From Tannerella sp. (GTDB lineage Bacteria > Bacteroidota > Bacteroidia > Bacteroidales > Tannerellaceae): DNA of 64,000 nt. The notes beneath the pieces are model-generated. The model saw only the letters and a program-made list of their open reading frames with translations. It was not told where the DNA came from and searched no databases. Positions 7,501-48,820 of this stretch are shown here, one piece after another. Both the position numbers and the translations under genes were made by a program. The stretch's first letter is position 1, and each line of letters starts with the position of its first letter. Where the stretch lies: positions 1 through 64,000 of the forward strand of contig JAITVY010000108.1 of NCBI GenBank assembly GCA_031285565.1, given 5' to 3'.

Positions 7501-9018
7501 AAACTTATCGCCTTTGGAGAGTGTCGTCGGAGGAGCAGACATTTTTGTCGTGCTGTCTGAGTCAAGGAATATCAGGTTTTTGAAGTCCGACGTCCCTCCA
7601 TCTTTCACCTTTTGCAGTTCATATGTTAACTGCGAAAGATCCAAGTTGTCTTGGTACTCTATTTTAATGCAGAAAGCGCTTTTTTCAGCCTCAGCCGTTG
7701 AATAGCCTTCTACAAGTGGCATGGACGGATAGTCCGTGAAACTAATGTCGGCCTTAAACAGCGGAAGGATAATCGTTTCAGCACCGGAAGTGGTTTTATT
7801 TACCGGCATATACGGACGCCCGAGCGTTGTAGGCGCTGAACTTGATGCATCCGTAAAGAAAGTAGTTGGATTCTTGAATAATCCATGCACTTTCATCAAT
7901 CCGTCCGACGCTCCCGTTTTTCCAATCCAAACATGTGTAAGGTTGAAAGTAGAATACACTTTATTAAAAACATCCTGTAACCCTTCCGTTTCTGTCAGAT
8001 CAAGATAGATATTCGCGTTTTTTTCATAATCTTCCGCACGAATTGTAAGGAGCGGGTTAGCCGGATCGTTGACGTAGGTGGTGTATTTTGCACCAGCCAA
8101 TGCGAGATCCGGGCGTATGTCAGAGGCATAAGAACCACTTGCCTCAATTTCGGCTGGAGGAAGAACAACTATGGCACTTCCTTCCGCATACGCATCTTCA
8201 ACACCACCTCCCAATGGGCATCCGCTGCCAATACCTGCCGCATGACGCACGGAGCGTGACTGCACCTTTCCGCCGGTAACAATAATGATACCGTCATACC
8301 AAGTTTTAAAACCGCCGCCTATTCCTGCCCCATGTGCTCCACGGGCATCAACGGTACCACTTTTGATAATAATATTACCACCAGCCGTATTTCTGTGCGC
8401 ACTAGGATAGCGAGCGGACGTAGAAGCATTAGTATAAGTCGAATTTATCCCTCCGCCCTTATTGTAAATAGTCGCCCATCCCTGCGGTTCCGGACTGTTG
8501 GGAGCGCCGATACCGGCGCCGGCAGCTTCGACAGCTATAGATTGCCCCGGCGCTACCGTGGTAGCATAGGCTTTCAATGTATTCAGGGGGTCATTCTCAA
8601 GCGAACTGATGTTGATTTGCGCTCCCTGGTTTACCTGCAACGCAGCCGCTGGTGATCCTGTATACTGGATGATGTTGTTTCCTTCCAATTCAATGTCCAC
8701 ATTGGTTACCGGATTGGCATTGCTGCGGCCGTTTTCCCCTTCGACAAGGAACGGAGAATACGATCCTCCAATGTTGATACTCATGCCCCGCAAAGTAATC
8801 TTGCCCACATAGCCGGACTGTACGATTACTCTACTGTTTATTGTACTGCCGGAAATTGTGTGATTGCCGCTTCCTTTGCCAATAACCACATTTACACCGT
8901 TATTACTCAAGACGTAATCCGTAGCGTGCAAACTGCCGCCACAAAACGCCAACATCACTAATAGAGCCGCTAAATACCAGAATCTTTTTCTGAAATAGTT
9001 TAATTGTAACATACACAA
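4504..9018 (-). CDS. Large secreted InlB-repeat surface protein with tandem near-identical repeats
   Basis: A 1504-residue exported protein. A signal peptide (FRKRF, hydrophobic core, GGSLHA near residue 32) is followed by a glycine-rich region (about 35-330: GAGIGGG, AAGIGSG) typical of a right-handed beta-helix. A middle region of unknown fold comes next, then seven InlB-type repeats (about 688-1420), each starting VTYDGNG or similar and closing MYAVW plus a DTNGNDIPD dyad. The first four repeats are nearly identical at DNA level; the last three have drifted. The final 50 residues (IYTIGGMLYKQVDV, GGIYIVEMDGVRYKAVVK) match the DUF6383/type IX sorting-like C-terminus. It starts 22 bp after the thioredoxin-like gene, so the two are probably co-transcribed. 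The size and repeats point to a cell-surface stalk or adhesin; the ligand is unknown. Confidence 0.82.
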   Translation of the reverse strand: MCMLQLNYFRKRFWYLAALLVMLAFCGGSLHATDYVLSNNGVNVVIGKGSGNHTISGSTINSRVIVQSGYVGKITLRGMSINIGGSYSPFLVEGENGRSNANPVTNVDIELEGNNIIQYTGSPAAALQVNQGAQINISSLENDPLNTLKAYATTVAPGQSIAVEAAGAGIGAPNSPEPQGWATIYNKGGGINSTYTNASTSARYPSAHRNTAGGNIIIKSGTVDARGAHGAGIGGGFKTWYDGIIIVTGGKVQSRSVRHAAGIGSGCPLGGGVEDAYAEGSAIVVLPPAEIEASGSYASDIRPDLALAGAKYTTYVNDPANPLLTIRAEDYEKNANIYLDLTETEGLQDVFNKVYSTFNLTHVWIGKTGASDGLMKVHGLFKNPTTFFTDASSSAPTTLGRPYMPVNKTTSGAETIILPLFKADISFTDYPSMPLVEGYSTAEAEKSAFCIKIEYQDNLDLSQLTYELQKVKDGGTSDFKNLIFLDSDSTTKMSAPPTTLSKGDKFYIVAPLKDGKIIGGYEDVILIKGKYDNEVMAGYLRRISAQVVVRDDTDKNDHIKVTANPQSFTEIFQTDKTVKLTLNINHMGLKPNYDPITVKAKYLITTEPNYEAALTATPLTQWANMDVPLTEGTGKETTVSFKDKATGTYYIHWYVVSGYFMAHSKDVTDPVRQYGGFGPYNIVVGKEVTYDGNGNTSGTAPIDPLKYASGATVTTKLHGDLARTGGTDPIVFAGWAPTKITAVLTKTTAADTTTAFVREGNTFVITSDTTMYAVWSTDTNGNDIPDIFEDGYGVTYDGNGHTSGTAPVDPVKYVSGASVTTKLHGDLARTGGTDPIVFAGWTPTQVTNVLTKTTAADTTTAFVREGNTFVITGNTTMYAVWSTDANGNDIPDIFEDGYSVTYDGNGNTSGTAPVDPLKYVSGASVTTKLHGDLTRTGGTDPIVFAGWTPTPVTAVLTKTTAADTTTAFVREGNTFVITGNTTMYAVWSTDTNGNDVPDIFEDGYSVTYDGNGNTSGTIPVDPLKYVSGASVTTQFHGDLARTGTPAILFAGWAPTQVSNVLTPATASDTTTAFVREGNTFVITGNTTMYAVWSTDTNGNDIPDIFEDGYKVTYHANGASGTPPVDATTYLTRTSVTVKANSSLTKTGALFIGWSFSASPLVVVLADVPNDLTQPNATFTITANTTLYAVWAADVNGPDNEGDDVPDYLQYGVTYDGNGETSGSVADNCIYNNGMNVTLKDKGTLVKTQRVFLGWNPAVQADLMTIGEYNSFIGLNTMKKADETFVIAGNTIWYAVWAKDENGNGIPDYLEIEITYEQNLMDGPALKETVERGSTVTFTDKGLNRPGYVIIGWTTKPFPMLISNAIMETMATATGTFGTFYAVGSSYTVTASVTLYAVWAIDKNNDGYPDYGSTIVLPASGGVNTRGLLLSGDATGNGVITGARVWAHGSTLYIESDKAVRAKIYTIGGMLYKQVDVPEGMVSEPLPGGIYIVEMDGVRYKAVVK
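5691..6957 (-). repeat. Four near-identical tandem repeats of 315-318 bp inside the surface protein gene
   Basis: A conserved block (GTAACCGTCTTCAAAGATATC on the plus strand) recurs at about 5691, 6006, 6324 and 6642, spacings of 315, 318 and 318 bp. Each unit encodes one InlB-type repeat of 105-106 residues. Identity is high enough for slippage or unequal crossover to change copy number. Confidence 0.9.
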
Positions 9019-38027: not shown

Positions 38028-39047
38028 ATGCAAGATACAACGATCATATTGATACTGCAACGATACATAAAGAATCAGTGTTCGGAACAGGAGTTGCGAA
38101 CATTGCTTCATCAGTTGAAGTTATCCGACAATCGCATTGACCTTGATTGGATTGTCCGGCCGCTTTGGGAGGCCATTGATAAGGAAAGCGCGCTGCCAAA
38201 TAAAGAAAGAAAAAGCGAATTGCGTAGAGAGGTATCTTCTTTATTGCTTGAAATCAAGCAGAAGAACAATACTGTTCCTTATTCCGACACAAGAGACAAA
38301 CTCCATTTAAACGGCTTTTACAAGATAGCAGCCATATTGATTCTTGTTTTCGGCGTGACATTCGGATTACTGAACATATTCGACCGTTCGCAATCAACCA
38401 TTACATATATAGAGAGTACATCCGCAAAAGGCGAAAAGAAAAGCTTACTTCTAACCGATGGTACAAATGTTATTCTTAATTCTGATACCAAACTTATCAT
38501 TCCCAGCGATTTTAACAATAAGGAGCGTATAATAGAAATAGAAGGAGAGGCATTCTTTGATGTAACCCTCAATCCCGATAAGCCTTTTATTCTAAAAAGC
38601 GGAGAGACCCGGATAAAAGTATTGGGTACTTCATTCGATTTTAAATTGTACAAGGAGGATGAATTCATCAAACTAACTGTTTCAACAGGTAAAGTCCAGA
38701 TCAATGTTGCCGACCAAGAGCTACAACTGTCCGTTTCATCCAATGAACATCTTTCAATCAATAAAAAAGACGGAAATATCCGCAAAGAAACAATTGAGGA
38801 GAATAACTATATCAAATGGATACACAGCTCCCTCTATTTTAACAGAGAACCCATCCGTGAAGTGATCAAAACAATCAATCGAACCTATAATCGAACAGTG
38901 ATTTTACAAAGTGAGGAAGCTGATTATCGCATAACAGGTATCCATCATAATAAGAGTATTGATGCGGTAATTGAAGCCATCTGTTTTACAACCGGACTTC
39001 AATATCGACACGAGGATGAGAATATAATATTATATGAAACACAGTAA
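38028..39047 (+). CDS. FecR-family anti-sigma factor
   Basis: 339 residues. An N-terminal cytoplasmic part (about 1-100) is followed by one membrane segment (KIAAILILVFGVTFGLLNIF, about 104-123). The periplasmic FecR domain shows LLTDGTNVILNSDTKLIIP and IIEIEGEAFFDVTLNPDKPFILKSG, and the C-terminal DUF4974-like part has REVIKTINRTYNRTVIL. It would hold an ECF sigma factor until a SusC-type receptor signals. No intact sigma gene is next to it: the downstream receptor is broken and the nearest sigma gene lies 9 kb away on the other strand, itself truncated. It may therefore be an orphan. Confidence 0.92.
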   Translation: MQDTTIILILQRYIKNQCSEQELRTLLHQLKLSDNRIDLDWIVRPLWEAIDKESALPNKERKSELRREVSSLLLEIKQKNNTVPYSDTRDKLHLNGFYKIAAILILVFGVTFGLLNIFDRSQSTITYIESTSAKGEKKSLLLTDGTNVILNSDTKLIIPSDFNNKERIIEIEGEAFFDVTLNPDKPFILKSGETRIKVLGTSFDFKLYKEDEFIKLTVSTGKVQINVADQELQLSVSSNEHLSINKKDGNIRKETIEENNYIKWIHSSLYFNREPIREVIKTINRTYNRTVILQSEEADYRITGIHHNKSIDAVIEAICFTTGLQYRHEDENIILYETQ

Positions 39048-39336
39048 TCAACCATTAAATAGAATGCCTATGATAAATCAGTAATCGTAAAATATAAAAA
39101 ACAGTAGCGCTGCCGCACTACTGCCTTTACTAAATTCCGGCAGGGACTTTTAAAACAGTATTGAGCCACTGAGTTGCAAAGAACCTCTGCCCGTTTTAAC
39201 AAATATCATTTATTTAAAACATTGAGCCCACTTTAAAAAGTCGAATTTGCAGAAAATTAACGTCCTACAGTTGCTTCTGAAAGGGAAAAAAAATGAAAAA
39301 GTAAACTTTTTCAAGTGGACTCAACATTACAAATGT
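39048..39336. other. 289-bp gap between FecR and the receptor remnant
   Basis: It contains a hairpin CAGTAG/CTACTG (39102-39107 and 39118-39123) with a 10-base loop. No gene is supported. A frame opens at 39247, but the receptor signal peptide begins only at 39337. Confidence 0.4.
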
Positions 39337-39730
39337 ATGAATAATAATCTAATCTATACCAAGTTTCTTATGCGAACTTCGTTAGCCGTTTGCGCTATCG
39401 CCTTATCGACTCAACTACTTTGTGCCGAAAGCGTTTTAGGACAAAACCTAAAAGAGAACAATATCCGTGGTAAAACAAATGTCGGTCAGCGACGCTTTTG
39501 AGCAGTTGACTAAAGCCACCGAATTTAATTTCTCCTATGAAGAATCCGTTATAAAAGGATTGAAAAATGTAAGCATACAAGTAGAAGAAGGTTCGATCGA
39601 TGTCATTTTGAAGGAGCTGTCCCGACACAAACCATTTAAGAATGGAACGATTCGTCCCGTCAAACTTGGGTTGAACAAAAAGTGTGAAACTTCTGCCGGA
39701 GCATACCATATCGGAAAAATTTCATTATAA
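39337..39730 (+). pseudogene. SusC/TonB-dependent receptor, 5' remnant (signal peptide and STN domain, frameshifted and truncated)
   Basis: The first frame gives a receptor signal peptide (LMRTSLAVCAIALSTQLLCAESVLGQ) and LKENNI, then leaves frame near 39470-39485. The STN domain continues in the next frame: MSVSDAFEQLTKATEFNFSYEE, VSIQVEEGSIDVILKELSR. After ELSR the similarity to receptors ends abruptly; the roughly 1000-residue plug and barrel are missing. STN domains occur in receptors that signal to a FecR/ECF sigma pair, so this was the receptor of the FecR gene upstream. It is dead by both a frameshift and a truncation. Confidence 0.88.
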
Positions 39731-39803: not shown

Positions 39804-39865
39804 TTATTTATATAACACAAAAACCGTTAACAACAGATTAATGGAGATATCCACATTTTTGTTGA
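39804..39865. repeat. 62-bp direct repeat, left copy (3' end of an ECF sigma gene)
   Basis: This matches 48260-48321 at 61 of 62 positions. Read on the minus strand it encodes the end of the sigma factor (NKNVDISINLLLTVFVLYK and stop). Beyond 39865 the similarity ends. The two copies are in the same orientation and bracket the peptide cluster. Confidence 0.9.
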
Positions 39866-40103: not shown

Positions 40104-40304
40104 ATGAACGAAATGAAAAAATTGAAGCTTACCCGGTTAAGCAAAGCGGAATTAGACAAAAAAGACATGAACAAACTTCGTGGAGGTGGTTGTTGTATTT
40201 GTGGGTGCTACGGACCAAGTGGAACTGGTGACAATGCCGGATATAACAACAGTGGAAGCCTATCTTCTCCATGGGGTGGCTATGGTAACGGAAGTTTTGG
40301 ATGA
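40104..40304 (+). CDS. Ribosomal peptide precursor of the GG-Bacteroidales family
   Basis: 66 residues. The leader (1-28) is charged and ends KKDMNKLRGG, a double-glycine cleavage site preceded by LSKAELDKKDM as in the TIGR04149-type precursors. The predicted core (29-66) starts GCCICGCYGPSG and ends with a Gly/Ser/Asn-rich tail closing GYGNGSFG. Four cysteines (30, 31, 33, 35) crowd at the start; Ser and Thr are spread over the rest. It is followed by the radical SAM gene after a 214-bp gap with a long palindrome. Thioether or other crosslinks at the Cys cluster and sugars on Ser/Thr are possible but unproven. An internal ATG at residue 4 is an alternative start. Confidence 0.88.
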   Translation: MNEMKKLKLTRLSKAELDKKDMNKLRGGGCCICGCYGPSGTGDNAGYNNSGSLSSPWGGYGNGSFG

Positions 40305-40311
40305 AAAAAGA

Positions 40312-40453
40312 AGAGGGTGTGTCAAAAGTCCGCATCGTCATTGCGAGAAGGCTTTAGCCGACGAAGCAATCCAGCCTACAAGCTATATACACTGGATTGC
40401 TTCACCTACGGTTCGCAATAACGGGACAATATCCGATTTTCGACACACCCTCT
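40312..40453. repeat. 142-bp long palindrome (MITE/REP-like) between precursor and maturase
   Basis: Outer arms AGAGGGTGTGTC (40312-40323) and GACACACCCTCT (40442-40453) are perfect. Inside, GTCATTGCGAG and GAAGCAATCCAG on the left face CTGGATTGCTTC and CGCAATAAC on the right, so the whole element folds into one long hairpin. The CATTGCGAG and GAAGCAATCC core is widespread in intergenic repeats. It begins 8 bp after the precursor stop codon. Confidence 0.85.
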
Positions 40454-40518
40454 TTAAACAACGATTGATGGCGTTTTTGAGTTGACGGCAACGATGTTAC
40501 ACTTCTTGATTTGATAAT

Positions 40519-41952
40519 ATGAAGGATCTTATTTATGCAAAATCCGGGCATGGCTATCTCTATTCCGAAAGTAAGAACAGCTTTCTTTTTATACCTCCCG
40601 GTTTTATTTCAGACACAAACGATTCGGAGTCCGATACCGATTATTACAAACGAAAACAGGCTTTTTGGGAAGAAAAAGGTGTGTTTACACCTGAAAAGCG
40701 GAACTTGGATACGGCTTACGATACCGCATATATCGAATCGAACTTGGCAAACCTGAGGCAATTACTGATTGAAGTGACGGATGATTGCAACTTGTCGTGT
40801 ACATACTGCGGGTATGGGGAATTATATGGTAATTACGATAAACGAAAAGGGAAAAATCAAACGTTTGAGAACGTAAAAGCATTGATTGATTACCTTGCCG
40901 GATTATGGCTATCCGATAAAAATATTTCTTTTGATACGATTATCTATATCGGTTTTTATGGCGGCGAACCTTTACTGAATTTTCCGCTGATCAAACAAAC
41001 CATTGACTACCTTGAAACCATACCCATCGAAGGATTGAAGTTTGAGTATAACATGACGACTAACGGCGTGTTGTTGTCCCGTTATATGGATTATCTGGCG
41101 GAAAAAGAGTTTCATTTACTCATCAGTTTAGACGGAACACGGGAAAACAACAGTTACCGGGTGACCAAATCCGGGAAGGAATCGTTTGATACGATCATCT
41201 CCAACGTACAAAAATTACAGGAAACATATCCCGATTATTTCGAAGCTTTTGTGGGGTTTAATAGCGTATTGCATAACCGTAATTCTGTTGCAAGTAGTTA
41301 TGAATTTATAAAACAGCTGTTTAATAAAAAAACATCTATCGGAGAGTTAAGTTACAGCGGCATTGTAGAAGAACAGCGGGAAGCATTTGCCACCATGTTT
41401 ACGGAGAAATCCGCCAGCATGAAGCAGGCGATGAATTGCGAAGCGGTAGTAGAAGATTTATTCGGTATTGATCCTCAAACCATGCAACTAAGTAATTTCT
41501 TTGAAGCGTATACGGATCATACGTATCGCAGTTTGCCGGATCTGTTTTTCAAAAAAGACACGATTACCTATTTACCGACCAGTACATGCCCTCCTTTTTA
41601 TAAGAAAATATTCCTGACCGTAAACGGTAAAATTCTGCCATGTGAAAAAATCGGTCAGCGAACGCCGTTGGGTTCGGTTACGAACGGAGTAGTGGAACTG
41701 CATAGCGAGGAGATTAAAAAGATCTATATGAAGTTGTACGGTGATATCATCCGGCAATGTGAGAAATGTTATGCATGGAAAAATTGTGGCTGTTGCATTT
41801 ATCTGTTTAACGCCAATAAAGAAGGTAAAATCGTTTGTGACCGGTTTTTCGGCAAGAAAGAAATCATCGCTTACTTTGCCGACGCGCTTTCGACACTCGA
41901 AGAAAAGCCCGAATACTATGAAAAGATCAGTAAAGAATTAACCATTGATTAA
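40519..41952 (+). CDS. Radical SAM peptide maturase, GG-Bacteroidales type
   Basis: 477 residues. The radical SAM cluster motif is CNLSCTYC (Cys 90, 94, 97), followed by the SAM-binding GFYGGEPLLNF. The N-terminal 80 residues may hold a precursor-recognition fold. The C-terminal part is SPASM-like: a cysteine at CPPFYKKIFLTVNGKILPC and a CEKCYAWKNCGCC cluster, consistent with auxiliary iron-sulfur clusters, then a final CDRFF. The domain order fits TIGR04148-type maturases that act on the adjacent precursor. The stop codon overlaps the start of the next gene by one base (TAATG). The product chemistry (thioether, C-C link or epimer) cannot be told from sequence. Confidence 0.92.
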   Translation: MKDLIYAKSGHGYLYSESKNSFLFIPPGFISDTNDSESDTDYYKRKQAFWEEKGVFTPEKRNLDTAYDTAYIESNLANLRQLLIEVTDDCNLSCTYCGYGELYGNYDKRKGKNQTFENVKALIDYLAGLWLSDKNISFDTIIYIGFYGGEPLLNFPLIKQTIDYLETIPIEGLKFEYNMTTNGVLLSRYMDYLAEKEFHLLISLDGTRENNSYRVTKSGKESFDTIISNVQKLQETYPDYFEAFVGFNSVLHNRNSVASSYEFIKQLFNKKTSIGELSYSGIVEEQREAFATMFTEKSASMKQAMNCEAVVEDLFGIDPQTMQLSNFFEAYTDHTYRSLPDLFFKKDTITYLPTSTCPPFYKKIFLTVNGKILPCEKIGQRTPLGSVTNGVVELHSEEIKKIYMKLYGDIIRQCEKCYAWKNCGCCIYLFNANKEGKIVCDRFFGKKEIIAYFADALSTLEEKPEYYEKISKELTID

Positions 41953-43211
41953 TGATGAACAGAAACGATCCGGACTATTGGTTTTATTTGGAACCTTATA
42001 CTTTTCTCTTTCATGAAGGTGACGCTTTTGTAGTGTACAACACATTGAACGGGGCGTATATTGACTGTTCGTTATATCCGGGCATACAGGATATCTTACA
42101 GGAATTATATGTTTCCGATACAAATTATTGTGTAGGATTACATGAAGAGCAGCTTAGACAGGAAACGTTGCGCTCTTTTATCCGGGAAATCCGGAACACT
42201 TTCTCCGGCGATATGGTGAAAAATACGCACGGGACAGCTCCTTTTATCTTTAAACCGATACTGAGGCTTTATAGTCATCCCGGCGATTTAAAAGCGAAGC
42301 AGGAGAATTTGCTCGGATTAAGCAGTTTGCTGTATCTGCATGAAGTGGCCTTTTATTTGGGAAATCCATGTCGGCGGAATTGCCCGGATTGCAAGCGTTA
42401 TTACAAACAGTTCTATCATTGCACCTGTCCGGAGGAAGAACAGGTCATGACATTTGACGATTATGAGAAGATCATCGCTCAATTGGAATTGTGTCAATTG
42501 GATAAATTGTGCCTGATTCCGGGAGAGAATGCCGATAAGGAATTGGTACAAAAACTACTGTTTCAGTTGCAGAGGTCGCCGTTAAAGAAAGAGGTAATAC
42601 TTCATGATACCTCTTCGCCGGACGTAACGAATGATTTTCTACAAGCCGGTTTTGCCGTGAAAATAATGACACACTTAACCGGAGAAGTGTCGGATTTACA
42701 AACGAAGTTGAATGCTGTAACGGATAAGAAGCTGACCCGGGTGTTTATTATTACGGATGAGTCGGATTTGAAACAGTTGGATCTGCTGAAAATACCGGAT
42801 GACGTACCTTATGAGGTTATTCCTTATTTCAATGGTTTTAATCTGCCGTTTTTTGAAAAATTCGTATACAACGAGTTAGATGACATTCTCCGGGAGCCTG
42901 TCGAAAAGCAGGCGATTTTCAGGAGGCAGGTGCTGAATGAAAACTTCTTCGGGGAACTGTCTGTTTTTCCATCGGGGCAAGTCTATGCAAATCCGAACGA
43001 TCCTTCGATCGGTCATGTATTGCATCAAAAACTGACGGAGATTGTTTACCGGGAAATAAGCGATTCCAAGGCATGGCTCAAAACACGGGAAGAAGGTGCA
43101 TGTGGGAAATGCGTTAACAAATACCTGTGTCCTTCGCCAAGCAATTACGAAGTCGTCATAAATAAATCCGATTTATGCCATATAAGAAGCTGTTTTGAAT
43201 TTTACAACTAA
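41952..43211 (+). CDS. Radical-SAM-like partner protein ('pseudo-rSAM' of the GG-Bacteroidales system)
   Basis: 419 residues. An N-terminal part (YWFYLEPYTFLFHEGDAFVVYNT) recalls peptide-binding RRE-like domains. It then has GNPCRRNCPDCKRYY, a CxxxCxxC triplet (Cys 140, 144, 147), although families of this type are usually called pseudo-radical SAM. Further cysteines occur at YHCTCP and at the C-terminus (GACGKCVNKYLCP, LCHIRSC), which could bind another cluster. The glycine motif that normally binds SAM is not obvious. It is coupled to the maturase by overlapping start and stop codons. It may help present the precursor or perform a second modification. Confidence 0.85.
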   Translation: MMNRNDPDYWFYLEPYTFLFHEGDAFVVYNTLNGAYIDCSLYPGIQDILQELYVSDTNYCVGLHEEQLRQETLRSFIREIRNTFSGDMVKNTHGTAPFIFKPILRLYSHPGDLKAKQENLLGLSSLLYLHEVAFYLGNPCRRNCPDCKRYYKQFYHCTCPEEEQVMTFDDYEKIIAQLELCQLDKLCLIPGENADKELVQKLLFQLQRSPLKKEVILHDTSSPDVTNDFLQAGFAVKIMTHLTGEVSDLQTKLNAVTDKKLTRVFIITDESDLKQLDLLKIPDDVPYEVIPYFNGFNLPFFEKFVYNELDDILREPVEKQAIFRRQVLNENFFGELSVFPSGQVYANPNDPSIGHVLHQKLTEIVYREISDSKAWLKTREEGACGKCVNKYLCPSPSNYEVVINKSDLCHIRSCFEFYN

Positions 43212-43257
43212 TGATATGATGAATAAATTCAAAGCAACTTCTAAAAAAATAATGATT

Positions 43258-44436
43258 ATGAAAAAGAGCACTTTATCATTGATACTTGTTATCGCTCTGC
43301 TTCTTTCGTCCTGCGGCGGCGAACAAAAGAAGCGGTTGACGTTAGCAGACTGTCCTGTGATTGCATCCAAGACAGGGGATTTAATTACGCTGGATTATTC
43401 GGCCGTTAAGGATACATTTAACGTCCCCCTCGGTATTTTCCTGTCCGATTATGAACTCATCCGGCTGGAAAATTCGGAAGAAGCGCTGTTAGGAGAAACC
43501 GGCTCTATTGCTGTCAGTGAAAATTATATCGGTATTTATAATTCAAATCCAAAAGGTTACAAACTGTTTAATCGCAAAGGAGAATATCTTCGAACCATAT
43601 CATCTGTTGGTCAAGGCCCCGATGAATATTTTATGACAATTTATGACAGTTATATTGACGAAAAAAACGGGATGATTTATTTACTGCCAGGCATGACGAA
43701 AAAATTGTTGGTATTCGATTTGGAAGGGAATCCGCAGCAACGTATCCCTTTTCCTTTTATGGTTCATAAGGGGCGTTTCCGGATTGATGCGGAGAAGAAG
43801 GAGTTAATTATGACGGCGCTGCCTTTTTTAGACACACCGTTCGTTACCTGGCGGCAGGATTTTGAAGGGAATATCCTGCAACATATTGACGCCGGACATT
43901 TCGTTATTGATCCGGGCGATTACGGCAATGAAGTGAATCAATCACAAAATACAACTGCGATGGATTTTTCCCTGTTTCATTGGGGACCAACTGTCGATTC
44001 GCTCTACCATTACAATGAACAGCAGAATGTCTTGGAACCTGTTTTTACCGTCAAGTGGAAAGGCGATGATATCATACGTCACGGATACACTGAATTGCCG
44101 ACCCACTATTTTATTGATTTAGACTTTCAGTTCACTGATCATGTGCCCCGTCATCTACGGATTCTATTGGATAAAACCACTTTGCGCGGTTGCTATGCAA
44201 ACCTGAGATTTAATATGTTGGGAAACATTGCCGGCCCTCCCTGGTTAACTTTTAACAGGGGATATTGTATTGCCAATATGTTTCCGTATGAGCTGAAAGA
44301 GCAGTTGAAAAAAGCGCTTTTAAAGCCTGAAAGAATGACCTTGGAGATGAAAGAAAAGCTGATAAAATTAGATAACAGCCTTACGGAAGATGATAACAAT
44401 GTGTTGTTTATCGGGAAATTGAAAGGGGTGGAATGA
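43258..44436 (+). CDS. Six-bladed beta-propeller lipoprotein
   Basis: 392 residues from ATG at 43258. The frame opens at 43195, inside the previous gene, but only the internal start puts the lipoprotein signal first (MKKSTLSLILVIALLLSSC, lipobox LSSC). The rest resembles the DUF5128/DUF4934 six-bladed beta-propeller group: DYELIRLENSEEALLGETG, YIGIYNSNPKGYKLFNRKG, RTISSVGQGPDEYF and MIYLLPGMTKKLLVFDLEG. These lipoproteins often accompany GG-Bacteroidales peptide genes; their role is unknown, perhaps immunity, transport or sensing at the cell surface. Its 3' end overlaps the LanC-like gene by 4 bp. Confidence 0.88.
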   Translation: MKKSTLSLILVIALLLSSCGGEQKKRLTLADCPVIASKTGDLITLDYSAVKDTFNVPLGIFLSDYELIRLENSEEALLGETGSIAVSENYIGIYNSNPKGYKLFNRKGEYLRTISSVGQGPDEYFMTIYDSYIDEKNGMIYLLPGMTKKLLVFDLEGNPQQRIPFPFMVHKGRFRIDAEKKELIMTALPFLDTPFVTWRQDFEGNILQHIDAGHFVIDPGDYGNEVNQSQNTTAMDFSLFHWGPTVDSLYHYNEQQNVLEPVFTVKWKGDDIIRHGYTELPTHYFIDLDFQFTDHVPRHLRILLDKTTLRGCYANLRFNMLGNIAGPPWLTFNRGYCIANMFPYELKEQLKKALLKPERMTLEMKEKLIKLDNSLTEDDNNVLFIGKLKGVE

Positions 44437-45068
44437 AAAGGATGGAAAATGTAAGGCGCATTGCTAATTACCTGATTGTAAACAGCTCTTCCCTGCATGA
44501 TATCGGTCTGTTTAACGGTAAAATGGGAATAAGCGTCTTCTTTTTTCATTATGCAAGGTTTGTAAAAGAGGAAATCTATGCCGGATTTGCGAAGCTCTTA
44601 TTGGAGCAGGTTATGGACGATATCACTACGTATACACCGGTTAATTTGCAGGATGGTTTATGTGGAATCGGATGGGGGATAGAGTATTTGGTTCAGGAGG
44701 GTTTTATCAAAGCGGATACGGATGAACTATTCGCCGAGTTGGATATGCAGGTCATGAGCGTGGATGTTAGCCGGATATCCGATTACAGCCTTGCTACCGG
44801 ATTGAAGGGAATAGTGCACTATTGGTTAAGCCGATGCAGGAATCAAAAGGATAACGGCTATCCTTTTGACCGGCAATACCGGAGTCATTTGGAAGATACA
44901 CTGAAGGAGTATAAGGCCGGTTTAACTGATCCTTTCCGGCAGTCACATGTATTGCATATACCGGACATCATCCGGAATAATACGCCTTTTACCGGCATAT
45001 CCGAAGATGTTTCTTTAGGATTGAATAATGGATTGGCCGGAATAGGATTAAAAGAAATAACAGGATGA
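44433..45068 (+). CDS. Short LanC-like protein
   Basis: 211 residues, about half the size of a LanC cyclase. It shows glycine-rich helix-hairpin repeats of the LanC toroid: GLFNGKMGISVFFFHYAR, NLQDGLCGIGWGIEYLV, ATGLKGIVHYWL and, at the end, GLNNGLAGIG. The zinc ligands of LanC (a Cys in WCYG and a Cys-His pair) are not found. It may be a dedicated subfamily that binds peptide without cyclising it, or a shortened relic. The reading frame is intact and it overlaps both neighbours by 4 bp, which argues that it is expressed and used. Confidence 0.75.
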   Translation: MKRMENVRRIANYLIVNSSSLHDIGLFNGKMGISVFFFHYARFVKEEIYAGFAKLLLEQVMDDITTYTPVNLQDGLCGIGWGIEYLVQEGFIKADTDELFAELDMQVMSVDVSRISDYSLATGLKGIVHYWLSRCRNQKDNGYPFDRQYRSHLEDTLKEYKAGLTDPFRQSHVLHIPDIIRNNTPFTGISEDVSLGLNNGLAGIGLKEITG

Positions 45069-46213
45069 AACATCTGTATCTGTTTGAAGAAGCAACCGGT
45101 AATGCGGCCGTTTTTGGAGTAGGTACCTACATAAAAAACCTTTTATCCGTATTAAAAGAAGAAGATATAAAAATAACCGTCTGCCGAACGATCGGAAGCC
45201 ACACAGAATTAGACATAACATACGATCAAACGATCCGGTATATTCATATACCTGCTCCCGCAGATCGATATGCAGATAAGCGGGACTATTATACGAATGT
45301 CTTTTTTGTCGTTTATCCTTTCATTGATAAGGATGAAAAGAATGTATTCCATTTTAATTATTTGAACTGTTCGAAAATAGCCGGGTTATTAAAACAGCAC
45401 ACCCATGCCAAAATTCTGCTTACGATTCATTACAGGCAATTATCAACGTCTGAGAATAAGGATGCCGAGAGAGAATTTGTAAACGAATATTGTGACAAAA
45501 TAATCGTACTAAGCAGACATGCTTATGTTTCGTTACTGAACGATTTTTCCGTGAATCCGGAAAAGATCATGATAATCCCCAATGGCATTGAAGATCGTTT
45601 CGAATGGATGCATAAAGATGAATTGCAAAACATCAGGGAATATTTCAACATATCTCCAAATGAAAAGGTCATTACGTTTGCAGGAAGATTGGATGCAAAT
45701 AAAAATATATCCGTATTGATTCGTGCTTTCCTGCAAGTAGAAAAAACAGATAAATCGATTCGATTAGTTATTGCCGGAACAGGAGATTTTTCATCTGCAT
45801 TTAGTGCGATCAGTCACTCATGGGGGAAAATAACCTTTACCGGTTTTTTAAATAAACAGGATCTGTATAAACTCTATCAAATAACCGATTTGGGAGTCAT
45901 CCCATCCGTTTATGAAGAATTCGGATATGTAGCGGTTGAAATGATGATGCATCAGATCCCAGTTATCGCAAATGATACTTCCGGTCTGGCAGAAATAATC
46001 GAAAATAATATTTCCGGAAAACTGGTTAATATATTTTCTAAGAAAACAGAGCGACAAGCAGTAATAACCCTATCTGATTCTATCGAAAAAATGCTTACCA
46101 ATAAGCATGTATGCCTTCAGATGGGAATAAATGGTAGAAAATGTTTTCTGGAAAATTATGAAATCTCTTTATTTAAGAAAGAAATGATCAAATTATACAA
46201 CACTCTATTTTAG
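45065..46213 (+). CDS. GT4-family glycosyltransferase of the GG-Bacteroidales peptide system
   Basis: 382 residues, GT-B fold. The N-terminus (KHLYLFEEATGNAAVFGVGTYIKNLL) matches the glycosyltransferases found with GG-Bacteroidales peptides (TIGR04157-type). The donor-binding domain has FAGRLDANKNISVLIRAF, VIAGTGDF and the GT4 signature EEFGYVAVEMMMHQIPVIANDTSGLAEII. It overlaps the LanC-like gene by 4 bp, so it belongs to the same transcript. The acceptor may be the peptide or a surface sugar; the gene order favours the peptide. Confidence 0.9.
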   Translation: MKHLYLFEEATGNAAVFGVGTYIKNLLSVLKEEDIKITVCRTIGSHTELDITYDQTIRYIHIPAPADRYADKRDYYTNVFFVVYPFIDKDEKNVFHFNYLNCSKIAGLLKQHTHAKILLTIHYRQLSTSENKDAEREFVNEYCDKIIVLSRHAYVSLLNDFSVNPEKIMIIPNGIEDRFEWMHKDELQNIREYFNISPNEKVITFAGRLDANKNISVLIRAFLQVEKTDKSIRLVIAGTGDFSSAFSAISHSWGKITFTGFLNKQDLYKLYQITDLGVIPSVYEEFGYVAVEMMMHQIPVIANDTSGLAEIIENNISGKLVNIFSKKTERQAVITLSDSIEKMLTNKHVCLQMGINGRKCFLENYEISLFKKEMIKLYNTLF

Positions 46214-46269
46214 TCATATCTTTGCTTATCAGATAAATATGGACTGAAAGAATGATAATCTGAAAGAAC

Positions 46270-47169
46270 ATGAAAAAGAAAATCATATTGTTTTACAACA
46301 ATCCGGAATGGAATAAGGATGCATTTCAGGAGTTACAGGAGGCTCCAACAAATTATATAATAACATGCGACCGGAGTCTTTTTGGTAAAGCGCATGTTGT
46401 TATTTTTCACTTATTTGACCTGTATCAGCACATGAAGGATGATATAGAAAAAACAGAGAACCAGTTATGGGTAGCTTGGAATATGGAATGTGAGGAGCAT
46501 TTCTCATGGATGAAGGATAAGGAAGTCCGTGAATTGTTCGATATCAGAATGGATTACTTCCAAGATGCGGATATTGTATGTCCGTATTACCGGAATATAA
46601 AGGAAAACAATATGCCCAAAGTTACAGGTTTAGAAATAAGAGAGGATAAGACATGCATGATGATATCAAGCCCATTCAATCAGAGCAGGCGAAAAGAATA
46701 TCTTGAAAAACTGATGAAGTACACCATTATTGATTCATATAGCAGGCTATACAATAACAAGCTCTTGGAAAATGACCGGGGGAGAGAATCCAAAATGGAA
46801 CTTTACACCAAATACAAGTTTGTTATCGCCTTTGAGAACGCAATCGGGAAAGACTATGTTACCGAGAAGTTCTACGACCCGTTGCTGGCAGGTTCGGTTC
46901 CGGTCTATTTGGGTGCGCCCAACATAGATAAATTTGTCCCGGGAGATAATTGTTTCGTAGATGTAAGGAATTACAAATCACCGGAGGAATTGGCCAAATA
47001 CCTGAATCGGTGTATGACGGATGAAAAGGAATATATGAAATATCACAAATGGCGTGAACTTCCGTTTCGTAAAAGTTTTACCGATATGGAGAAAGAGCAG
47101 GATACGAACCCGTTTATCCGCTTGTGTGAATTGCTGGATAAAAAGTATTTCGGAAATGTACAGTATTAA
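46270..47169 (+). CDS. GT10-like (fucosyltransferase-fold) glycosyltransferase
   Basis: 299 residues. The C-terminal half has the GT10 motif: YKFVIAFENAIGKDYVTEKFYDPLLAGSVPVYLG, then NIDKFVPGDNCF. Family members transfer fucose from GDP-fucose, usually alpha-1,3 to GlcNAc; related ones use other donors. The N-terminal acceptor-binding part (KIILFYNNPEWNKDAFQEL) is unlike known examples. It starts 56 bp after the GT4 gene and 9 bp before the GT2 gene on the same strand. Confidence 0.85.
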   Translation: MKKKIILFYNNPEWNKDAFQELQEAPTNYIITCDRSLFGKAHVVIFHLFDLYQHMKDDIEKTENQLWVAWNMECEEHFSWMKDKEVRELFDIRMDYFQDADIVCPYYRNIKENNMPKVTGLEIREDKTCMMISSPFNQSRRKEYLEKLMKYTIIDSYSRLYNNKLLENDRGRESKMELYTKYKFVIAFENAIGKDYVTEKFYDPLLAGSVPVYLGAPNIDKFVPGDNCFVDVRNYKSPEELAKYLNRCMTDEKEYMKYHKWRELPFRKSFTDMEKEQDTNPFIRLCELLDKKYFGNVQY

Positions 47170-47178
47170 TATATAATT

Positions 47179-48048
47179 ATGAAACCCGCCATCAGTATCG
47201 TTATGCCTGCCTATAATGCAGGAAATTATATCTCCGAATCGATAGAAAGCATTCTGAGCCAAATATTCGATGATTTTGAACTGATCATAATTGATGACGG
47301 ATCTACCGACAATAGTGTAGAAATTGTGAATTCATATCATGACAGCCGTATCGTTCTGTTGGAAAATCCCCATGATTTTATCCTTTCATTGAACACGGGC
47401 ATAGAAATATCAAAAGGAAAATACATTGCCCGGATGGATGCGGATGATATCATGATGCCCAATCGACTGCAACTCCAATACGAATTTATGGAATCTCATC
47501 CGGATGTTGATATTTCTGGCGGCTGGATGGAAACATTTGGAAACGGAAAGGAGATCATACAACAACCATTATCCCATAACGATATTTTGTCAATCATGTT
47601 GATGCACTGTCCGCTTTACCATCCCACTGTTATACTGCGCCGAGATTCAATATCCAAACTTCCGTCTTTTCCGTATATCTACAAGCAGAAGTTTATCTAC
47701 GCTGAGGATTATAAACTATGGACGGAGTTAGCTATGGCTGGCTTACATTTTGCAAACATACCGGAAATCTTGCTTAAGTACCGCCTCTCGGAAACACAGA
47801 ACACATCAAGATTTGTTTCTCAAATGCATGATGGCAGCAAGCATATTCAAGCAGAATACCTTGAGTATATATCCGAAAAATTAGTCGAAAATGATGAGAA
47901 ACTATTCGGATTTATAAACCGGACAATAGAACTTTTCAATGAAAGCATCCTGACATTTAGTACTCTAAAACAAGTGATATGTGATATTTATAGGAACCAA
48001 CTAAAAGAATTACGGCGGAAAGACAAAGTTAAAGTCTTGTTCTCTTAA
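47179..48048 (+). CDS. GT2-family glycosyltransferase
   Basis: 289 residues, GT-A fold. The nucleotide-sugar site is ISIVMPAYNAGNYISESIESIL, LIIIDDGSTDNS and ARMDADDIMMP, with the DxD-type metal motif. LYHPTVILRRD and AEDYKLWTELA are the family's acceptor-side motifs. It adds one sugar from an activated donor. The stop lies right where a remnant of a fourth glycosyltransferase begins, so its last residues may have been altered by that junction. Confidence 0.9.
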   Translation: MKPAISIVMPAYNAGNYISESIESILSQIFDDFELIIIDDGSTDNSVEIVNSYHDSRIVLLENPHDFILSLNTGIEISKGKYIARMDADDIMMPNRLQLQYEFMESHPDVDISGGWMETFGNGKEIIQQPLSHNDILSIMLMHCPLYHPTVILRRDSISKLPSFPYIYKQKFIYAEDYKLWTELAMAGLHFANIPEILLKYRLSETQNTSRFVSQMHDGSKHIQAEYLEYISEKLVENDEKLFGFINRTIELFNESILTFSTLKQVICDIYRNQLKELRRKDKVKVLFS

Positions 48049-48259
48049 AAGGTTTCCGGAAGAATCCCTATCCTTATATAAAGGCTTCGGATATATTTGT
48101 ATTATCCTATTACAGTGATGGATACCCATTGATTATCTGTGAAGCGCTCTGCTTAGGGAAGACTATTGTAGCCAAAATGTATCAGGGCTAAAAGAAGTGC
48201 TGGGATATGGGGAATACGGTATGCTGGTGAAAAATGATGCAAGACCTGAAATATTGAGC
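48033..48259 (+). pseudogene. C-terminal remnant of a GT4-family glycosyltransferase
   Basis: In one frame the DNA reads GFRKNPYPYIKASDIFVLSYYSDGYPLIICEALCLGKTIVAKM, the donor-binding end of a GT4 enzyme. After a frameshift near 48180 the next frame continues KEVLGYGEYGMLVKNDARPEIL. There is no N-terminal two-thirds. The remnant ends exactly at 48259, one base before the 62-bp repeat that is the end of the sigma gene, so it was cut by the recombination that placed the repeat. Confidence 0.85.
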
Positions 48260-48321
48260 TTATTTATATAACACAAAAACCGTTAACAACAGATTAATGG
48301 AGATATCCGCATTTTTGTTGA
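48260..48321. repeat. 62-bp direct repeat, right copy
   Basis: This is the 3' end of the ECF sigma gene including its stop codon (48260-48262). It differs from 39804-39865 at one base. Same orientation as the left copy. Confidence 0.9.
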
Positions 48322-48820
48322 AATAAGCCTTTATAAATTTGATCGCTTCTGAAATATGCTCTTGCACGGTGTTAACCGAAATATTTAATTCGGCTGCAAT
48401 CCCCTTATGAGGCATACATTCAATCCGGCTCATCGTAAATACTCTTTGACGTTGCGGAGGGAGTTGACCGATTGCATTTTGAAGAATCTTTTGATATTCG
48501 GCATAGATTAGGTGGGAATCGACCGCTTCTACTTCCGTAATGGCTTGTGCGGACAATATTTGTTTCACCTTCTCGTCTATATCAATGTCACGAAAATAAT
48601 TGAATATGCGGTTTCGCGCCATCGTGTAGAAAAAAGAAGATAAGGATAAATCCGGATTGATAAAAGAACGCAATTCCCATAAACGGATAAATATTTCCTG
48701 GAAAATGTCGCCCACTTCTTCTTTGGATTTAAGCAAGTGAAAACAAAAACAATACAGTTTGTCTTTGTAGCGTACATAAATATGTCTACTTTGGCAAGTT
48801 ATTCGCCTGACAGCTGTCAA
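48260..48820 (-). pseudogene. ECF sigma factor, probably 5'-truncated
   Basis: The frame encodes sigma region 2 (YVRYKDKLYCFCFHLLKSKEE, DIFQEIFIRLWELRSF, FFYTMARNRIFNYFRD) and region 4 (AIGQLPPQRQRVFTMSRIECMPHKGIAAELNISVNTVQEHISEAIKFI). The family's first 15-20 residues, which lead into YVRYKDKL, are missing: only TTG at 48820 is available as start, the residues before YVRY look random, and a stop lies just upstream. The lost 5' end is replaced by a set of 22-bp repeats. It was probably paired with a FecR gene. Weak expression from TTG cannot be excluded. Confidence 0.7.

Follow-up and report, generated by a model that had tools for sequence, protein, structure and literature searches.

Does a compact set of eight genes in a Tannerella genome direct the synthesis of a ribosomal peptide that is both crosslinked and decorated with sugars, and how much of such a system is new? 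The genes occupy positions 40104-48048 of a 64,000-nt stretch of contig JAITVY010000108.1 (Tannerella sp., assembly GCA_031285565.1), which is called the window here and to which all positions refer; the source genome comprises 5.0 Mb in 118 contigs and is 83% complete. To our knowledge, few products of Bacteroidales loci for ribosomally synthesized and post-translationally modified peptides (RiPPs) are known. The cluster is a real, intact, and unusual member of a known but uncharacterized RiPP kind and, judged from its sequence, on balance probably makes a glycosylated peptide crosslinked by a radical S-adenosylmethionine (radical SAM) enzyme.

An intact cluster of eight genes

All eight open reading frames (ORFs) are intact, are located on the plus strand, and encode, in this order, a TIGR04149 precursor, a TIGR04148 radical SAM maturase, a TIGR04150 protein, a propeller lipoprotein, a LanC-like protein, and glycosyltransferases (GTs) of the GT4, GT10, and GT2 families (Table 1). 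The ORF check agreed with a first-pass annotation of this DNA in the coordinates of all genes and in the overlaps of 1 to 4 bp within the core, which are 1 bp between the genes for the maturase and the TIGR04150 protein and 4 bp each between the propeller and LanC-like genes and the LanC-like and GT4 genes. The precursor and maturase genes are 214 bp apart, a gap occupied by a repeat resembling a miniature inverted-repeat transposable element (MITE); 56 bp separate GT4 from GT10 and 9 bp GT10 from GT2. An alternative TTG start of the propeller gene at 43195 would create a 17-bp overlap with the TIGR04150 gene; the ATG at 43258, which leaves a gap of 46 bp and opens a lipoprotein-like signal sequence, is probably the start. 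The catalytic motifs that were inspected are present in the cluster genes, and the eight-gene arrangement is not a chance pattern.

The proteins of the window were scored with NCBIfam and Pfam profiles against the curated cut-offs. Haft and Basu (2011) reportedly gave the original description of the TIGR families. The first-pass annotation had proposed searches against TIGR04148, TIGR04149, TIGR04150, and TIGR04157; the cut-offs of the first three were exceeded, and the GT4 protein reached 330.9 bits with TIGR04157, below the cut-off of 400, being a relative not filed as a member. The reading as a double-glycine Bacteroidales peptide system that combines genes for a radical SAM enzyme, a LanC-like protein, and several GTs is supported.

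Table 1. Features of the cluster and its surroundings in the window
Feature	Position	Strand	Evidence or remark
Precursor peptide	40104..40304	+	66 aa; TIGR04149, 52 bits (cut-off 25)
Radical SAM/SPASM peptide maturase	40519..41952	+	TIGR04148, 521.5 bits (cut-off 300)
TIGR04150 "pseudo-rSAM"	41952..43211	+	371.2 bits (cut-off 250)
Lipoprotein, 6-bladed beta-propeller	43258..44436	+	DUF5128, 69.2 bits (cut-off 22.9); DUF4934, 32.1; signal and LSSC-type lipobox by eye
LanC-like half-size protein, no zinc site	44433..45068	+	211 aa; PF05147, 18.1 bits (under cut-off 23.2)
GT4 glycosyltransferase	45065..46213	+	PF00534, 103.9 bits (cut-off 26.4)
GT10, alpha-1,3/4-fucosyltransferase type	46270..47169	+	PF00852, 129.8 bits (cut-off 23.9)
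GT2 glycosyltransferase	47179..48048	+	PF00535, 116.9 bits (cut-off 23.3); DAD at 87
MITE-like repeat	40305..40470	.	Inverted ends 40311-40330 and 40435-40454, 90% complementary
Left copy, 62-bp direct repeat	39804..39865	.	98% identical (one mismatch) to 48260-48321
Right copy, 62-bp direct repeat	48260..48321	.	3' end of the ECF sigma gene
Frame-broken remnant, another GT1/GT4-type GT	48060..48259	+	Runs up to the right repeat
Extracytoplasmic function (ECF) sigma factor gene	48260-48820	-	TIGR02985, 144 bits
FecR gene, intact	38028-39047		Left of the left repeat
SusC-type start, broken after STN piece	39247-39730	.	STN, 24.7 bits (cut-off 28.4)

A motif shared by precursor cores

The precursor possesses the TIGR04149 leader (residues 1-28) with Gly-Gly at positions 27 and 28 and, as the first-pass annotation had assigned it, a core of residues 29-66, which holds C31-x-C33-x-C35 and S39...D43-N44-x-x-Y47-N48. 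The TIGR04149 model has 43 positions, covers only the leader, and stops just past the Gly-Gly, leaving the core motif outside the model.

Evaluation of this motif in other loci needs to consider how these loci were sampled. A radical SAM match at E 1e-30 or better was present in 17 of 119 related genomes. When contigs of named genomes were scanned, the best 80 of 534 entries were kept, yielding at least 79 loci, and the sample therefore leans toward close relatives. Together with stretches from the related genomes, 111 loci were mapped with profiles made for this analysis, and removal of six radical SAM duplicates (L039, L040, L043, L045, L046, and L049, the last having the same radical SAM protein as L152 of T. 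forsythia ATCC 43037) left 105 distinct loci. Many are cut by contig ends, so that flanks of 4 kb on both sides are available for 50 of the 105. Of the 80 references listed for alignment A3, 61 were used.

Precursors with an E value above 0.05 or without Gly-Gly were dropped, so that 93 of 102 distinct candidates were kept, 92 with Gly-Gly. Of these 92 distinct cores, 72 contained CxCxC and 49 contained CxCxC with S...N..xN behind it; 200 shuffles of each core gave means of 2.1 and 0.07 and maxima of 6 and 1, respectively. The consensus derived by eye begins with CxC[GSA]C, continues with either xGP or x(Y)xxxGG, and ends with S[SGT][ST]xDNxxAN, and the full motif occurred in 40 of 73 precursor-bearing loci. 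Its S/N part was found in 29 of the 53 cores from loci with LanC-like/GT4 genes and in 26 of the 39 from loci without them; being present in both situations, it fits the radical SAM step and not the sugars.

The maturase and its TIGR04150 paralogue

The maturase carries CX3CX2C at positions 90-97, as expected of TIGR04148, and Cys residues 357, 375, 414, 417, 423, and 426 are invariant across eight aligned relatives. The nearest NCBIfam models outside TIGR04148 were the thioether-type CcpM, lachnocin, RumMC, and PapB, and the closest PDB match was CteB (5wgg, E 2.5e-25). RumMC, CcpM, PapB, and CteB share the radical SAM and SPASM parts with this maturase, but it scored far under those family cut-offs (133.8 of 720 bits for RumMC) and is accompanied by another precursor.

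The TIGR04150 protein in the cluster retains CX3CX2C (140-147) plus four C-terminal Cys residues, and the idea that a "pseudo-rSAM" is dead was therefore rejected for this copy. After exclusion of proteins shorter than 350 aa, the motif was retained in 47 of 91 TIGR04150 proteins, and no association was seen between its loss and either absence of the core motif (18/12 versus 20/14, P = 1.0) or the sugar genes (P = 0.83). In the structural model, the N-terminal b-b-b/a part looks like a RiPP recognition element (RRE); in a structure comparison of this N terminus, only the matches to CteB (5wgg, 5why) and TigE reached residues 8-16 onwards, at a root mean square deviation of 6.7-7.3.

The closest radical SAM relative among the matches listed (56%) is that of L036 (G033:C65, 0.1-1.4 kb), the TIGR04150 gene of which is in several pieces and probably broken or badly assembled. 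In L037 (G042:C5, 10-17.8 kb), a single full radical SAM gene is preceded by about three repeats of an array made up of precursor, propeller, and short radical SAM-like fragments.

A LanC-like protein without a zinc site

The predicted fold of the LanC-like protein supports a short LanC-fold toroid. It differs from NisC, LicM2, LanCL1, and GCR2 in having 211 residues instead of about 350-400, no conserved zinc ligands, and a probable GT partner. No Cys or His column was conserved among 30 aligned LanC-like sequences, and the ligand set of a class I lanthipeptide LanC (Cys, Cys-His) was thus not found.

In the 50 loci with 4 kb on both sides, GT4 was present in 19 of 28 loci with a LanC-like gene and in 2 of 22 without (Fisher P = 3e-5). 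In 29 of the 45 loci with a LanC-like gene, this gene directly precedes GT4 or is fused to a GT gene. Fusions occur in six other loci as LanC-GT4 (L090), GT2-LanC (L128, L077, L047, and L050), or LanC-GT2 (L052), and Pfam LANC_like surpassed its cut-off only in the fusions of L090 and L077. Since conserved Cys or His residues are lacking and fusions to GTs exist in six loci, the LanC-like protein is likely a glycosylation partner and not a cyclase. A propeller gene was located at most 700 bp after the precursor in 31 of 56 cases with LanC-like/GT4 genes versus 7 of 38 without them (P = 5e-4).

At about 8-20 kb from mlaE in another genome (L163 and L178, G016:C129), there are two LanC-like/GT4 pairs, a GT2 protein with a LanC-like part, and an outer-membrane barrel gene.

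GT10, GT2, and the supply of fucose

The PF00852 domain assigns the GT10 protein to the fucosyltransferases; its PDB match was FUT9 (E 7e-33), and no other PF00852 match was found in the source genome. A supply of GDP-fucose is suggested by the presence in this genome of gmd, a gene for an enzyme of the GDP-fucose pathway (582 bits, cut-off 415). GT10 is also present in three further TIGR04148 loci (L077, L118, and L128) and adjoins GT2 in L077 and L118, so that the assignment of both genes to an unrelated capsule locus, which the first-pass annotation had considered as a refutation, does not apply in those loci. L118 additionally contains further GTs, an outer-membrane protein, a precursor, and a radical SAM and a TIGR04150 gene; its sequence also shows a C39 exporter together with a fusion protein.

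A proposed pathway and its alternatives

From these features we infer one product that would be both crosslinked and glycosylated, together with the type of its bonds, the residues that accept sugars, the sugars themselves, the order in which the steps occur, and all biological roles. The leader would be held by the RRE-like N-terminal parts of the maturase and the TIGR04150 paralogue. The radical SAM/SPASM enzyme would link the CxCxC cysteines to residues of S-x-x-x-D-N-x-x-x-N into a hairpin of the sactipeptide or ranthipeptide kind, with the paralogue helping to deliver the substrate and, because this copy keeps CX3CX2C, possibly supplying a second radical step. GT4, for which the LanC-like toroid would be a non-catalytic partner, would then put the first sugar on Ser, Thr, Tyr, or Asn in the tail rich in Gly, Ser, and Asn, and GT10 (fucose type) and GT2 may extend or cap the glycan. 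A C39-peptidase exporter encoded elsewhere in the genome would cleave after the Gly-Gly and export the product, and the propeller lipoprotein would be its envelope partner, perhaps for immunity. Two C39-peptidase ATP-binding cassette (ABC) exporters are encoded outside the cluster, one of them beside an HlyD gene on contig C81 as a pair of HlyD and a peptidase-containing ABC transporter (PCAT).

Several observations weigh against this proposal. The core pattern was written only after the sequences had been read, which means that the shuffles exclude composition but do not show prediction, and the full motif is absent from 43 of the 92 cores. In the DNA covered, with 4 kb on both sides in only 50 loci, 82 of the 105 loci lack one or more of the six core families, and all eight families occur only in the window. 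The eight cluster genes include no exporter and no recognized immunity gene, and fucose salvage (PF07959, fucose pyrophosphorylase) was not found in the 83%-complete genome. A Bacteroidetes -7 type TAnnTTTG at 46217, inside the gap between GT4 and GT10 and with a chance of about 4% as calculated from how densely the motif occurs in the window, indicates that GT10 and GT2 could form a separate transcription unit. The LanC-like/GT4 block of L163 and L178, in a same-genus genome, is on a 31.8-kb contig with no radical SAM match; a sugar block can thus occur by itself, and its genes can have other uses. Partial decay may be indicated by the MITE and by the broken genes on either side of the cluster. 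In the literature searched, which included parts of PMC10352776, PMC4573289, PMC8939145, and PMC8698959 and left subscription papers and preprints largely outside, no isolated product of a TIGR04149 cluster was reported; it likewise did not mention the core motif or claim a LanC-GT partnership.

Some of these observations would also suit a peptide that is only crosslinked, with GT10 and GT2, perhaps also GT4 and the LanC-like protein, being accidental neighbors that glycosylate surface proteins or a polysaccharide. Besides the TAnnTTTG before GT10 and the block without a radical SAM gene, the presence of the same S/N motif in cores from loci without LanC-like/GT4 genes agrees with this, as does the service of a fucosyltransferase in the general protein O-glycosylation of T. 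forsythia and Bacteroides, according to the portions covered of PMC8698959. Such a neighborhood is nevertheless unlikely, if worth keeping in mind: GT10 and GT2 share one unit between direct repeats, GT10 recurs in other TIGR04148 loci and twice beside GT2, no second GT10 was found in the genome, and GT4 together with the LanC-like and propeller genes is associated with precursor loci. Much less room is left for a lanthipeptide with rings closed by the LanC-like protein. This is largely excluded by the half-size protein without conserved Cys or His and its fusion to GTs in relatives, and by the failure of NCBIfam and Pfam to give a LanB, LanM, or kinase-type dehydratase match among the eight genes, the rest of the genome not being searched; moreover, the 2023 survey, in the portions covered, found neither a zinc motif in its LanC sequences nor LanB in its genomes (PMC10352776). 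Lanthionine formation was therefore rejected, and "LanC-like" in the first-pass annotation should not be read in this sense.

A decaying remnant that makes nothing now would explain the MITE between precursor and maturase, other copies of which exist in the genome (further matches on contigs C50, C117, C75, and C59), and the incomplete SusC and GT genes on either side of the cluster. It is improbable, given that the eight ORFs are intact with the inspected catalytic motifs and that the end of the precursor resembles the ends in L039 and L036, which indicates that the MITE did not cut it. The MITE-like element may act as a hairpin between precursor and enzymes. With respect to function, a modified peptide that is held by the propeller lipoprotein as a surface or signaling molecule instead of being antibacterial is a serious possibility that falls short of an even chance. 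Propellers multiply together with precursors in L037, L040, L053, and L079, and GT sets differ between loci; both findings would equally be expected of antibacterials that diversify along with their cognate immunity proteins. A sigma-70 promoter scan upstream of the precursor was uninformative, with eight found versus 6.2 expected.

Boundaries of the unit

The 62-bp direct repeats bracket the whole unit, GT10 and GT2 included, as in an integrated element, and from the sequence the unit has the appearance of a cassette integrated at the sigma gene's 3' end. The first 49 bases of the left repeat have two occurrences in the genome at no more than three mismatches. No recombinase was found among the eight genes between the repeats with NCBIfam and Pfam. 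A search for the cluster site in 41 same-genus genomes at the DNA level gave only short, weak matches and no empty site, and because FecR was not beside mlaE in 15 same-genus regions, no empty site could be read from synteny either. Behind a same-genus FecR relative with 51% identity, by comparison, the SusC match is long. One 46-aa piece of the remnant at the right edge matches Glyco_trans_1_4 at 26.7 bits (cut-off 27); as it did not match the GT4 profile, its origin as a copy of the cluster's GT4 was rejected.

Flanking repeats as a general feature of such clusters were rejected after a scan of the 105 distinct and six duplicate loci, and in loci of at least 9 kb, repeats lay for the most part within genes present in duplicate, namely those for precursors, propellers, GT4, or exporters. 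In L152 of T. forsythia ATCC 43037, near-identical stretches of about 280 bp at 7568 and 14366 flank the TIGR04148 locus, one of them by a transposase-like piece.

Distribution and possible meaning

Among the 105 distinct loci, including the window, matches were present for the TIGR04150-like protein in 100, the precursor in 80 (at a loose threshold), the propeller in 54, the LanC-like protein in 45, GT4 in 36, GT2 in 21, and GT10 in 4. Since the precursor occurs in 80 loci, the refutation that the first-pass annotation had foreseen, homologous clusters without a precursor, fails. The six core families were found together in 23 loci. Parabacteroides distasonis NM39_I3 is among the strains with a related cluster (L075).

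These loci might represent a phylum-wide family of glycosylated, crosslinked peptides with the core CxCxC-(GP or YxxxGG)-S(S/T)xxDNxxAN and exchangeable sugar sets, the zinc-less half-size LanC toroid being a dedicated subunit of peptide GTs and the set with GT10 moving here as an 8.5-kb cassette between the 62-bp repeats. As a whole, this picture is tentative and rather unlikely to hold in every part. If true, a LanC fold that partners GTs would give a well-studied protein a new function, and a fixed core acted on by exchangeable GTs would amount to a natural means of glycopeptide variation, usable for design. The shared core motif provides a concrete set of target residues for the radical step, and the cluster is small and intact enough for testing in Escherichia coli.

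Relation to known systems

The core system is already described, and the unusual part is the mix of GTs with GT10. The first-pass annotation had named the system as undescribed; TIGR04149/04148/04150 clusters were reported in Bacteroides in 2015 (PMC4573289) and Bacteroidales clusters BGC3-BGC5 in 2023 (PMC10352776), as far as the portions covered of both papers show. Compared to the TIGR04149/04148/04150 (GG_samocin_CFB) RiPP systems, leader, maturase, and paralogue are all above the cut-offs, but GT10 and GT2 do not belong to these families and the TIGR04150 protein here keeps its Cys motif. BGC3 to BGC5 likewise contain a radical SAM, a pseudo-rSAM, and a zinc-less LanC-like protein, with a GT in BGC3 and no PCAT in BGC3 and BGC5; Table 1 of that survey lists 263 areas with radical SAM and LanC and 41 with radical SAM, LanC, and S-glycosyltransferase in 1,136 genomes. 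That paper suggests an endoglucanase-like LanC, whereas the fusions found here point to a GT partner, and GT10 is not mentioned in its covered portions.

The source genome contains a second TIGR04148/TIGR04149 cluster (L060, C48:15000-27613) with radical SAM, TIGR04150, propeller, and LanC-like genes and three GT4 matches; its precursor has CxC pairs without the S/N motif. In L177 (C45:37000-52000 of the source genome), a C39 exporter gene adjoins those for an acyl-carrier-like 99-aa protein and an unassigned 434-aa protein, which is possibly another peptide system.

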